The notes under the pieces are model-generated. The model saw only the letters and a list, made by a program, of their open reading frames with translations, was not told the origin of the DNA and made no database searches. Below, piece after piece: positions 31,578 through 36,437 of a stretch of 39,808 nt of DNA. The DNA comes from Clostridiales bacterium (lineage in GTDB: Bacteria > Bacillota > Limnochordia > Darwinibacteriales > B1SED10-159): assembly GCA_003551965.1 (NCBI GenBank), contig PUOC01000166.1, forward strand, positions 1-39,808. Reading direction: 5' to 3'. The translations under genes were made by a program, and so were the position numbers. Numbering within the stretch: position 1 is the first letter of the stretch; every line of letters starts with the position of its first letter.

Positions 31578-31712
31578 TTAGGCAGAAAGACGCTTCCTTC
31601 CTTTGCTCCGGCGGCGGGACACGACCCGACGGCCACCCGAAGTCCGCATTCGGACAAGAAAGCCGTGATTCTTCTTGCGCTTACGACGATTCGGTTGATA
31701 GGTTCTTTTCAT
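31578..31712 (-). CDS. rpmH: 50S ribosomal protein L34
   Basis: A 44-residue, very basic protein: it begins [19 protein letters not shown] and has the core [24 protein letters not shown] split here only for length. This is exactly the L34 length and sequence pattern. The ribosome site GGAGGGAGGT is strong. First gene of the rpmH-rnpA-yidD-yidC-jag unit. Confidence 0.98.
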
Positions 31713-32296: not shown

Positions 32297-34207
32297 TTAC
32301 CGATCCAGCCAATAGGTTGAAGGGTAGTGTGAGCCAGTGAAAATCGTGTCCCATACCCAAAAGCCTTCTTCAGGGAAGTTTCGCAGGTCCTCATTGACAA
32401 TCAAAGGCTTAGGTGCTTCACCCACCGTACCAATTGCCCAGAGATTCTCTGCCTGCGCTTGCACGATCTTTTTGCCCAATTCTATGCGACGCTCCTCATC
32501 CGGTGCGCCCAGCATATCGTCCCACCAACCATACAGCTCTTTGATGTGTTCCGGGGGTTCCTCGCCTTCGGCACCGTCCGTTTGGAACCAAGTACCCCAC
32601 AGCGGCCAAATCGTCCTTTCCCATCCAGGAGGCATAGGAATAAAGAACTGTGCATTGGTGGGGAACAAGATATCCGTTGCCTTATCACCATGCCAGACAT
32701 TGGCGTCTAGCATGTTCGCTGGTGCACGCTCACCCATCAATTCGCCAGAAATGGAACGGCTGCGGGCGTCGATGCCCACTTCTTGCAGATGCTGGATGAT
32801 CAGCTCGACAACAGGTGCCTTTGGGGTTTCATAGTCATAGTATTCTACGGTGAACATGAAGCGTTCGCCGTCGGGGCGAAGACGAAAACCTTCGCTATCG
32901 TATTCGTCTAAACCGGCTTCATCCAGTAATTCATTGGCCCGCTCGGGGTCGTACTCAATGAATGCTGTCTCAAATTCTGGTTCATAGTATTGGCTGGTAT
33001 CCAATACGGTGTACTGCCGGGGTACTCCCTGCCCGAAATAGACCACTTCATTGATCTCATCTCTGTCAATGGCCTGGGAAATGGCCTGGCGAACCCGTTT
33101 ATCTTGAAAAAGCTCACGCAGGGCCAAGTCTTCATGGGTCTGGTTAACCATCAGGATCACTTCCGAACCCATGCCACTTTCCCACAGCAGTGTCCTGTAT
33201 CCGCCTTCATCCTCATAGCTCCGATACATCGGATAATTCCGCAGGTCGGTGCCGTAGCCGACAAAATCCACCGCCCCACTCATGATCATGCCCTGGATAA
33301 CCTCCAGGTCAGATACGATCTGCGTGTCGATGCGATCGATGTAGGGCAGCTGGTTTCCTTCAGTATCGACTTTCCAGAAATATGGATTGCGTTCAAATTG
33401 ACGTCTCTCTGCGGTCTTTCCAACGATCATGTAAGGTCCGACGGTCGGCAGGTCCAACGCAACGGGCATACCGAAGACAACATCCGCCTTAGCCCAGAAG
33501 TAGTCATACCATAGCTCGTAGCCTTCCTCCCGGGCAGCTTCCAATAGCTCTTCCTCCGACACATAATCAATGTGAAACTGTGTCAGATAGTGCTTCGGAC
33601 GTACATGGAAGTTGCCATGCACGAGATAGTTCAAAAAGAAAGGATGCGGTGCAGCAAATTTGAACTCCACTGTATAATCATCTACTTTGGTCACTTCAAC
33701 GGTTTCTCCGTCTCTTCGGAATTGATGGCCCACAACCGGTGTCAAATCTTCGTTGAGAAGCATGTCCTCGTACCAGAACATGATGTCATCCGCTGTATAG
33801 GGCTCTCCGTCGGACCATCTCAGGCCCTCGCGGAGATGGAAGGTAAAGGTGGTTGCATCTTCGGAAACTTCTATATCCCGAGCCAGGTGGGGGTACAGCT
33901 CATGGGTTTCCGGATGCGGCTGCACCAGCCCGGCATAGAACGGCATCAGCAGATAGTCGTCGCCGATGCCCTCCGGCGCTGTTGTTGTAGTGCGAATCGT
34001 ACCCCCGTATTCGCCGATACCGTCATACCCTTCTACAACCAATGGTTCCACAGGAAGGCGCTCGTCGACCTGCGGAAGCTCCCCAGCTTCAACCATTTCT
34101 GTCAGCATAGGAGCTTCGCCATAGTCCTGGGCTGCAGTCATACCACTGAATAATACCAAGGCCAACACCACAAAAAGCATGAAATACCTGTTCTCCAAAA
34201 GCTGCAT
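32297..34207 (-). CDS. ABC transporter family 5 extracellular solute-binding protein
   Basis: Substrate-binding protein of the oligopeptide/dipeptide class (SBP_bac_5), which in related families also binds oligosaccharides. The 636-residue protein starts with a hydrophobic signal peptide (FMLFVVLALVLFSGMTAAQ) with a type I cleavage site and no lipobox cysteine. The family body is clear: PHLARDIEVSEDATTFTFHLREGLRWSDGEPYTADD is its classic strand-helix region, quoted only in parts, then VGPYMIVG, RNPYFWKVD, and DKRVRQAISQAIDRDEI. ATG at 34207 has AAGGAGG before it. No permease or ATPase gene is adjacent, so it is an orphan, placed unusually between rpmH and the origin. Confidence 0.9.
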   Translation of the reverse strand: MQLLENRYFMLFVVLALVLFSGMTAAQDYGEAPMLTEMVEAGELPQVDERLPVEPLVVEGYDGIGEYGGTIRTTTTAPEGIGDDYLLMPFYAGLVQPHPETHELYPHLARDIEVSEDATTFTFHLREGLRWSDGEPYTADDIMFWYEDMLLNEDLTPVVGHQFRRDGETVEVTKVDDYTVEFKFAAPHPFFLNYLVHGNFHVRPKHYLTQFHIDYVSEEELLEAAREEGYELWYDYFWAKADVVFGMPVALDLPTVGPYMIVGKTAERRQFERNPYFWKVDTEGNQLPYIDRIDTQIVSDLEVIQGMIMSGAVDFVGYGTDLRNYPMYRSYEDEGGYRTLLWESGMGSEVILMVNQTHEDLALRELFQDKRVRQAISQAIDRDEINEVVYFGQGVPRQYTVLDTSQYYEPEFETAFIEYDPERANELLDEAGLDEYDSEGFRLRPDGERFMFTVEYYDYETPKAPVVELIIQHLQEVGIDARSRSISGELMGERAPANMLDANVWHGDKATDILFPTNAQFFIPMPPGWERTIWPLWGTWFQTDGAEGEEPPEHIKELYGWWDDMLGAPDEERRIELGKKIVQAQAENLWAIGTVGEAPKPLIVNEDLRNFPEEGFWVWDTIFTGSHYPSTYWLDR

Positions 34208-34365
34208 GGAAAAGGACCCTCCTTGAGATATTGTATGTCTGTGTGCACGGCCCAACGAGTCAGCATTTGGATCTTCTATCCGCCGAATCACCCCCAAAAA
34301 GGCTGCTTCATTTGCAGATTACACCAAACTCCTTTGTGTCCGTTCCATAACAGGAACTTAATACC

Positions 34366-34394: not shown

Positions 34395-34949
34395 CCCGTT
34401 TTCTGATTCATAACGCATCCGTACCATACACAAACACCGCAGTCCCCCATGCTTGCTGCTTGACTTCCCGCCTGTCCGAAACCTGTTTGAAACCGGATAG
34501 CTGACCGAGCGACATCCAGATGCCGCCGTTTCAGGCAACCTTGTCAAGCAAAAAGTTATCCACAAACCCCACAGTATTTGCTCCACAGTTCTGTTGATAA
34601 ACCAGAACCCGTCTGCTACAATGACAAGAGTCCCCTATTTGCGGCGCTTTTTTGTCCACAAAGCCGGGGATGGACTGTGGATAAGATCGTTTGTTCGCAT
34701 TGTGTGGATAGTGAACCGTAGACCATTTTCCCTTTTGCCAGTCGCACCGCTTTGAACAGGGGTTTTCTTCTCCAACCTTTCTGCCCGCTTCTTGTGGATA
34801 ACTTTGTGGATGGATTAAATTTTTCTCTGGATAATCTGTTTTTCCACCGCACTCCACCAAATTGTGGATAACCTGTTTGTTTTGTGGATAAGTCCTCCCT
34901 TGACCCCGTATCACAGGATCGTCCAAAACTCAATTCTGTGAACAAACCG

Positions 34950-34978
34950 TGGACAACCATTCACATCGACACTATGTT
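34950..34978 (+). promoter_or_regulatory. Probable dnaA promoter
   Basis: TGGACA (34950-34955) and TATGTT (34973-34978), spaced 17 bases, about 100 bases before the dnaA start. A perfect DnaA box lies in the leader at 35022-35030. Confidence 0.5.
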
Positions 34979-35078
34979 CTGTGGAGGGTCAGTGCATGGC
35001 GCCATCAGAGTAGAAGGATCCTGTGGATAAGTACAGAATGAAACTATATTGGATTTGGACCGTTTTAGGAGGATATGT

Positions 35079-36437
35079 ATGACAGATCTAGACTTAACTT
35101 GGAAGCAAGTGCTAGACATGATGGCTTCGGAGATGGCTAAGTCGTCTTTCGACAGCTGGTTGAGCCAGACAAAAGCCAGCTACCACGAGGGAAATACCAT
35201 ATACATTGAAGTTCCCAATGAGTTCACCCGCGACTGGGTAGAGGCCCGCTATGCCGTCGCCCTGCGTAAGACACTGCGTCACATCACCGATCAAGACTGG
35301 GAACTCCGCTTTATTCTGCCTGGCGGCCGCAGCGGAGAATCTCTGGCCAAGAGAACCCGTAAATCAAGTCCTTCTGCACCAGAAAAAGAGGCTGCCGGCC
35401 AAGGTTTTTCATCCAGTCAGCTCAATCCCAAATATACATTTGATACCTTTGTGGTGGGGTCGAGTAATCGATTTGCCCATGCGGCCTCGCGCGCTGTTGC
35501 CGATTCACCGGCCAACTCATACAATCCGCTCTTTCTGTATGGCGGTGTTGGACTGGGAAAGACCCATCTTATGCATGCCATTGGCCATCGGGCACTGGAT
35601 AACGAACCAGACACCAATGTCATGTACGTGACAAGCGAAACGTTCACCAACGACCTTATTCACGCCATTGGGAAAAAGTCCATGGTAGACTTTCGGAATA
35701 AATACCGCAGTGTCGATATTCTGCTGATCGACGATATTCAATTCGTGGCCGGCAAAGAATCCACCCAAGAAGAATTCTTTCATACCTTCAATGCCTTGTA
35801 CGAAGCGAACAAACAGCTGATTATTTCTTCCGATCGTCCTCCAAAGGAAATTCCCACACTTGAAGAACGACTTCGGAGCCGCTTTGAATGGGGTTTGACC
35901 ACCGATATACAGGCACCGGACTTGGAAACCCGCATCGCGATATTGCAGAGGAAGGCGTACTCAGAAGGTGTTACCATAGACGACGAGGTCCTTACCTATA
36001 TTGCACGACACATTCAAAGCAATATCCGCGAGCTAGAAGGCGCTTTCATACGAGTGATTGCCTACGCCAATTTAAACGACGCACCACTGCACATGGAAAC
36101 CACAGCCAGCGCTCTCAAGGACATGCTGCCTTCCCAAAGCCAGAAGCCCGTGACCATTGAACGTATTCAAAAAGCTGTGGCAGACCATTTTGGGATCCGA
36201 GTCACCGACATGAAATCGAAAAAAAGGACCCGCAGCATTGCTTTCCCTCGACAGGTGGCCATGTACTTAAGTCGCGACTTGACCGAATCATCCCTTCCGG
36301 GGATTGGCGAAGAATTTGGCGGCCGCGACCACACCACTGTAATTCACGCCTGTGATAAGGTTCAAAAAGACATGACAAAGGATCCCAGTCTGCAATCGAC
36401 AATTAAGGACATCGTAGAAGTTATACAAAGGGGATAG
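35079..36437 (+). CDS. dnaA: Chromosomal replication initiator protein DnaA
   Basis: Binds DnaA boxes, forms an ATP-dependent filament and opens the origin. The 452-residue protein has domain I (1-80), a short linker, AAA+ domain with Walker A GGVGLGKT at 155-162 and Walker B LLIDDIQF, and domain IV ending with the DNA-binding signature GGRDHTTVIHACDKV. The ATG at 35079 follows AGGAGG by six bases; an in-frame upstream extension to 35049 lacks a ribosome site. Flanked by box clusters on both sides. Confidence 0.99.
   Translation: MTDLDLTWKQVLDMMASEMAKSSFDSWLSQTKASYHEGNTIYIEVPNEFTRDWVEARYAVALRKTLRHITDQDWELRFILPGGRSGESLAKRTRKSSPSAPEKEAAGQGFSSSQLNPKYTFDTFVVGSSNRFAHAASRAVADSPANSYNPLFLYGGVGLGKTHLMHAIGHRALDNEPDTNVMYVTSETFTNDLIHAIGKKSMVDFRNKYRSVDILLIDDIQFVAGKESTQEEFFHTFNALYEANKQLIISSDRPPKEIPTLEERLRSRFEWGLTTDIQAPDLETRIAILQRKAYSEGVTIDDEVLTYIARHIQSNIRELEGAFIRVIAYANLNDAPLHMETTASALKDMLPSQSQKPVTIERIQKAVADHFGIRVTDMKSKKRTRSIAFPRQVAMYLSRDLTESSLPGIGEEFGGRDHTTVIHACDKVQKDMTKDPSLQSTIKDIVEVIQRG

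Follow-up and report, generated by a model that had tools for sequence, protein, structure and literature searches.

A gene for a predicted exported solute-binding protein (SBP) of the SBP_bac_5 family lies between rpmH and the DnaA boxes of a Clostridiales bacterium (genome G000), where comparison with related genomes identifies it as a lineage-specific insertion. The gene is of an ordinary kind; what is unusual is where it sits. Judged from sequence and gene context, the same genome holds about two dozen diverged, mostly stand-alone predicted receptors of its clade, and a conserved transporter core of the Opp/Dpp type, encoded elsewhere, is the most likely recipient of the ligand that the oriC-side SBP binds, an operon on contig C85 being the best candidate for this core. 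The window referred to below is the whole stretch of DNA that was analysed, a contig of 39,808 nucleotides.

The Gene and Its Surroundings

The reading frame runs on the minus strand from an ATG at 34207 to 32297, stop codon included, and encodes 636 amino acids with no internal stop (Table 1). The product matches the SBP_bac_5 profile (PF00496) with 235.5 bits against a curated cut-off of 32.4 (E = 1.3e-69); proteins of this family are cluster C solute-binding proteins. Its putative signal peptide, MQLLENRYFMLFVVLALVLFSGMTAA, is of the classical type as assessed by eye and contains no cysteine. Three of 93 relatives show a lipobox-like pattern within their first 75 residues, and the oriC-side SBP does not. 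Omp85 matches were found in 39 of 40 genomes, including two partial matches in the genome studied here, and indicate an outer membrane, which would fit a binding protein that carries no lipid anchor. The hairpin 3' of the stop codon is strong and terminator-like, with no clear T run.

Table 1. Features of the rpmH-dnaA interval and its borders, in window coordinates.
Feature	Position	Strand	Basis
rpmH (44 aa), bordering the interval on the left	31578..31712	-	Read directly
Perfect hairpin 3' of the SBP stop codon	32237..32263	.	11-bp arms and 5-nt loop, by eye
Orphan SBP_bac_5 gene, product predicted to be exported, without lipobox	32297..34207	-	Intact frame, Pfam, nearest solved chains 5ipw, 7ver and 6epy
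Shine-Dalgarno-like AAGGAGGG	34217..34224	-	9 nt ahead of the SBP ATG, read from the sequence
DnaA-box cluster, six exact boxes	34556..35030	.	Between the SBP gene and dnaA
dnaA, bordering the interval on the right	35079..36437	+	HMM

In the surroundings, HMM searches identified rnpA, yidC, jag and mnmE beyond the rpmH end and dnaA, dnaN, recF and remB at the opposite end. All of the exact DnaA boxes in the interval (TTATCCACA or its complement) lie between the SBP gene and dnaA, and the rpmH side of the SBP gene has no exact match to the same motif. The SBP gene is transcribed away from the origin, as is rpmH, a direction that the sequence-only reading of this DNA had left out. That reading described an exported binding protein of 636 residues between rpmH and oriC, with a signal peptide and a hairpin of its own and no permease or ATPase genes beside it; the frame, the Pfam match and the HMM-checked neighbours agree with this description, and a profile search found no BPD_transp_1 or oligo_HPY domain on the 39.8 kb contig.

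The GC content of the gene is 52.0% and its GC3 58.0%, as against 47.8-54.2% and 51.6-57.7% in five neighbouring genes, among which its GC3 is marginally the highest. A foreign origin of the gene was considered and finds no support, as GC and GC3 are near those of the neighbours and the best matches lie in the same genome and family. Among the papers listed by literature searches, none deals with this oriC-side SBP gene, and none is relevant to SBP expansion in Limnochordia.

The rpmH-dnaA Interval in Related Genomes

A search for dnaA covered the genome itself and 39 relatives, 38 of which gave a match. In 33 of the 39 relatives rpmH and dnaA lie on one piece and the interval could be measured, the remaining six being interrupted by contig ends (G001, G008, G013, G024, G032) or without a dnaA match (G014). 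The interval measures 3366 bp in the genome studied here and 575-962 bp in 30 of the 33 measurable relatives, G020, G023, G029, G030, G035, G037 and G038 among them. In tblastn searches, the oriC-side SBP found no match at the rpmH-dnaA loci of any of the 33 (E limits of 1e-3 for a set of 23 short intervals and 1e-4 for the rows of the remainder). The empty site of G002, a member of the same family, is 962 bp long and aligns at both ends to both ends of the interval described here, over the first 75 bp past rpmH and several stretches of the last 530 bp before dnaA. It is from the absence of the SBP in all 33 relatives, the 30 short gaps and the alignment of this empty site that the insertion is recognised as lineage-specific, which the sequence-only reading had put forward as one option.

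The accompanying claim that this interval normally holds only origin DNA stands for the 30 short intervals but fails for the three longer ones (G025, 2.7 kb; G036 and G039, 1.6 kb each), which carry other genes or frames and rule out any reading in which the interval is always empty. In G025, a gene at L208:4037-5989 encodes a lipoprotein of 650 amino acids with a lipobox (by eye), an N-terminal Flg_new_2 repeat and a partial SBP_bac_5 domain; its position, and its orientation with respect to dnaA, are those of the oriC-side SBP gene, and BLASTP found no similarity between the two proteins. G036 and G039, which represent two other lineages of the class, have frames of 296 and 299 amino acids in the interval (L215:5247-6137 and L218:5798-6697), with weak matches to histidine-kinase ATPase and HTH domains, read in the direction of dnaA. 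The usual order in Firmicutes is rnpA-rpmH-dnaA-dnaN, and Clostridium tetani has a different gene upstream of dnaA, as stated in the accessible part of the source (PMC7561715). The rpmH-oriC interval, a conserved landmark in use, tolerates cargo genes.

Expansion of the Receptor Family

Searches for the SBP family gave 80 matches in the genome at E <= 0.001, with 51 above 100 bits and 42 aligned over more than 500 residues. Among the relatives, G001, G002 and G003 have 53, 47 and 74 matches, and the other 36 have between 1 and 21. To call the gene an orphan, as had been done from the sequence alone, is correct in that no transporter lies nearby, but with 51 family matches above 100 bits it is not a one-off.

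A quick tree with SH-aLRT support only was built from 93 rows, 14 of 107 frames being left out as shorter than 500 amino acids, and its rows from genomes other than G000 are loci picked among the best hits rather than full sets. The oriC-side SBP falls inside a group of 47 rows from G000-G003 (SH-aLRT 81), the sister of which is an operon-linked sequence from G016 (SH-aLRT 96). A set of ten rows starred on the tree holds both the oriC-side SBP and the SBP of the C85 operon, and several orphan SBPs are closely related to the latter when the tree is read with its gene-context labels. Within the group of 47, seven rows are labelled as linked, 25 as orphan and 15 as contig-end, the linked label being given wherever a transporter gene lies up to three genes away, whatever its strand, and including two rows, C85_11489 and G002_C125, that are not in an operon. 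Outside the group, 35 of the 46 rows are transporter-linked, four are orphan and seven are contig-end. Linked and orphan labels cluster on the tree: they require 10 changes, whereas each of 2000 shuffles, which ignore kinship, required at least 15, contig-end rows being left out of the test.

Twenty-four copies of the clade in G000 reach at least 500 amino acids. Of these, 21 are orphans, meaning that the contig extends for at least 1 kb in both directions and that no permease or ATPase gene was detected up to 2.5 kb away, two are contig-end (C59 and C10_6902), and one, C85_20834, is the first gene of an operon of the order SBP-permease-permease-ATPase-ATPase. No clear ortholog of the oriC-side SBP was found in G001-G003, for which completeness is given as 95, 79 and 86%; among the contig-end fragments examined, only one on G001 C231 has the oriC-side SBP as its best match (458 vs 451 bits, 56% identity), and the tree pairs that were taken as orthologs and measured are 70-92% identical. 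A receptor family of this kind appears able to expand without its pump, and some two dozen diverged receptors with one candidate core form a natural set for testing how SBPs dock to a transporter.

A Candidate Shared Transporter Core

The core encoded on C85 is conserved in sequence, its genes being 92, 83, 85 and 82% identical to those of the core on C280 of G001. In G003, which belongs to another family of the order, the C85 genes have counterparts in a permease of 87% identity and a pair of ATPases of 80 and 81%, these pieces lying on two contigs, C298 and C395, that are assumed to represent one operon. The SBPs beside the G003 pieces are only 57 and 46% identical to the C85 SBP, and are instead orthologs of two G000 orphans, C47_6342 (76%) and C111_1646 (70%), with SH-aLRT of 100 for both groupings. 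What is nearly the same core thus stands next to one SBP of the family in one lineage and next to another in a second. This is what a shared core would predict and supports it; the pattern could also come about if operons exchanged their SBPs and no core were shared. The suggestion made from the sequence alone, that the receptor makes use of a transporter whose genes lie elsewhere, thus gains indirect support from a C85-like core beside orphan orthologs in G003.

The Predicted Ligand

The nearest solved chain is 5ipw (E = 1e-111, residues 27-622 of the oriC-side SBP), which is presumably from Thermotoga and is labelled by its depositors as a putative oligopeptide binder. Together with SPH1118 (PDB 7ver), an oligogalacturonate-binding protein homologous over residues 31-620 (E = 3e-85), and an alpha-galactoside binder, it makes up the three nearest solved chains, two of which bind sugars. 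The binding pocket was scored over 24 rows using the contact tables of SPH1118 (PMC9314435), to which the alignment is distant; 13 of the 14 contacts could be scored, because every one of the 24 rows is gapped at the position of S298. Three aromatic positions hardly vary: W505 is a tryptophan in 24 rows, and W617 and W619 in 22 each. On the basis of the sugar-binding homologs and these tryptophan positions, the ligand is most likely an oligosaccharide or a similar glycan-derived solute, as against which stand the oligopeptide label of 5ipw and the M24 and M14 peptidase genes near some orphans. The four ligand arginines of SPH1118 (57, 438, 466 and 496) correspond to L86, E460, G488 and Q520, and since none of the four is kept, a pectin-specific pocket is ruled out and polygalacturonate is an unlikely ligand. 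Contact positions 319, 346 and 520 rank in the top 5% of variability among the 24 rows, and the mean variability over the 13 contacts is marginally raised (permutation fraction 0.078 with 633 columns and 0.050 with 581 columns); different copies perhaps bind different ligands.

Pfam matches of the genes near orphans (40 of 41 listed neighbours examined) include glycoside hydrolases, sulfatases, Gfo/Idh oxidoreductases, regulators, URO-D proteins and the peptidases named above, and some of these genes have no Pfam match at all. URO-D genes (PF01208) are themselves expanded, with 25 matches in G000 (for example C47:8466-9497, C59:1972-3096, C243:11919-13097, C111:560-1618 and C149:42618-43760) and 45 in G003, and they cluster with these SBPs. 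In G000, 9 of 25 lie within 2 kb of these SBPs against 2.0 expected, and in G003, where 43 of the 45 matches were used, 9 of 43 against 4.8 expected; the corresponding counts in G001 (1 of 17) and G002 (3 of 19) are not significant.

Proposed Explanation and Alternatives

The product of the gene would be a solute receptor of the periplasm, exported by a classical signal and not as a lipoprotein, from the long (~630 amino acids) branch of SBP_bac_5. With no pump of its own, it would hand its ligand to an Opp/Dpp-type core of two permeases and two ATPases, the candidate operon being that on C85. The two dozen or so receptors would have arisen by old duplication and scattering, one copy settling between rpmH and the DnaA boxes. 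The gene, its family, the empty site in relatives, the expansion, the orphan state and the closely similar core beside different receptors are observed, and we infer the ligand class, the use of the C85 core and insertion by duplication. As a whole, this account of a non-lipoprotein, oligosaccharide-type receptor served by a C85-type core, derived by old duplication and scattering with one copy beside oriC, is in our judgement reasonably probable. A more general version is offered tentatively, at somewhat less than even chances: one strongly conserved ABC importer of the Opp/Dpp type in a diderm lineage of the Bacillota may serve more than 20 scattered periplasmic receptors, which enter and leave its operon from one family to another and differ at their ligand contacts; one of them would have moved beside oriC, and its level could there be set by replication-linked dosage.

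The transporter assignment has one competitor that is unlikely but deserves weight, namely that the orphan uses another Opp-type core of the genome, or that different orphans use different cores. The genome has 33 oligo_HPY matches, 32 of them over the cut-off, and therefore roughly 16 ATPase pairs; related cores on C95, C175, C196 and C232, with first permeases 51-69% identical to that of C85, have no SBP on the available DNA, the contigs of C95, C196 and C232 ending less than 1 kb upstream of the permease; and in G002 a clade SBP on C276 adjoins two other permease-like genes. Nevertheless, no complete core operon other than the C85 type was seen next to a clade SBP of G000 or G001, and the G003 pieces have 80-87% identity to it, whereas the next best matches reach at most 64% in one comparison and 69% in another. 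Less probable still is a role in signalling alone, with the protein acting as a sensor or as a binding protein of the chemoreceptor type and taking no part in transport. SPH1118 serves both chemotaxis and assimilation, according to the portion of its description available (PMC9314435), and AraC, IclR and LacI regulators occur near some orphans, but the oriC-side gene adjoins rpmH and dnaA rather than regulators, and transporter linkage prevails among the rows outside its clade (35 of 46).

Two further alternatives concern the gene itself. An assembly artefact, in which the gene was wrongly joined into the rpmH-oriC interval, might be suspected in a single metagenome-assembled genome of 329 contigs with many paralogs, the only assembly of its genus among the genomes compared. 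Both intergenic flanks, however, have no other match in the genome and align to the empty site of G002, the GC content of the gene resembles that of its neighbours, and its longest DNA match elsewhere in the genome is only 66% identical, the most alike short stretch being 89% over 57 bases. As the flanks are unique and the longest match is so diverged, no repeat prone to misjoining is seen; misassembly is not indicated and is very improbable. The same 66% identity and unique flanks rule out a recent duplication, and while an identical gene partnered with a transporter elsewhere would have refuted the sequence-only reading, the closest copies that the genome contains share 59-60% of their protein sequence with it. 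Broken remnants of the family at C149:46434-46940 and C66:12805-12942, both interrupted by an in-frame stop, suggest gene birth and death in the family and might lead one to see the oriC-side gene as a decaying, non-functional copy, but its intact frame of 636 amino acids, ribosome-binding site, signal and conserved tryptophan positions make decay the least credible of these readings.

Comparison with Known Systems

Several known systems resemble this one in part. SPH1118 of Sphingomonas sp. A1 (PDB 7ver), described in the accessible part of its report (PMC9314435) as a pectin-binding SBP, is of the same length class, and its ligand-stacking W594 corresponds to W619 of the oriC-side SBP, although the ligand arginines of the former are all replaced in the latter. 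In Pseudomonas aeruginosa, five receptors for di- and tripeptides, DppA1-A5, work with one Dpp core, DppBCDF, as set out in the available text of PMC4206461. The likeness lies in several binding proteins for one core, which for the present genome we infer; the number of candidates here is about two dozen, and their ligands are probably sugars. Lineage-specific SBP expansions are likewise on record for the TTT SBPs of Rhodoplanes, with 434 genes, far above the usual size of a gene family (PMC5994714), and for the Bugs of Bordetella (PMC11452294), as far as the consulted sections of these papers go. These belong to another SBP family, to tripartite rather than ABC transporters and to proteobacteria, and the numbers in Rhodoplanes are much larger. 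Orphan SBPs that share one core and large SBP expansions are thus both already known, and the case described here is ordinary in kind and notable in scale.
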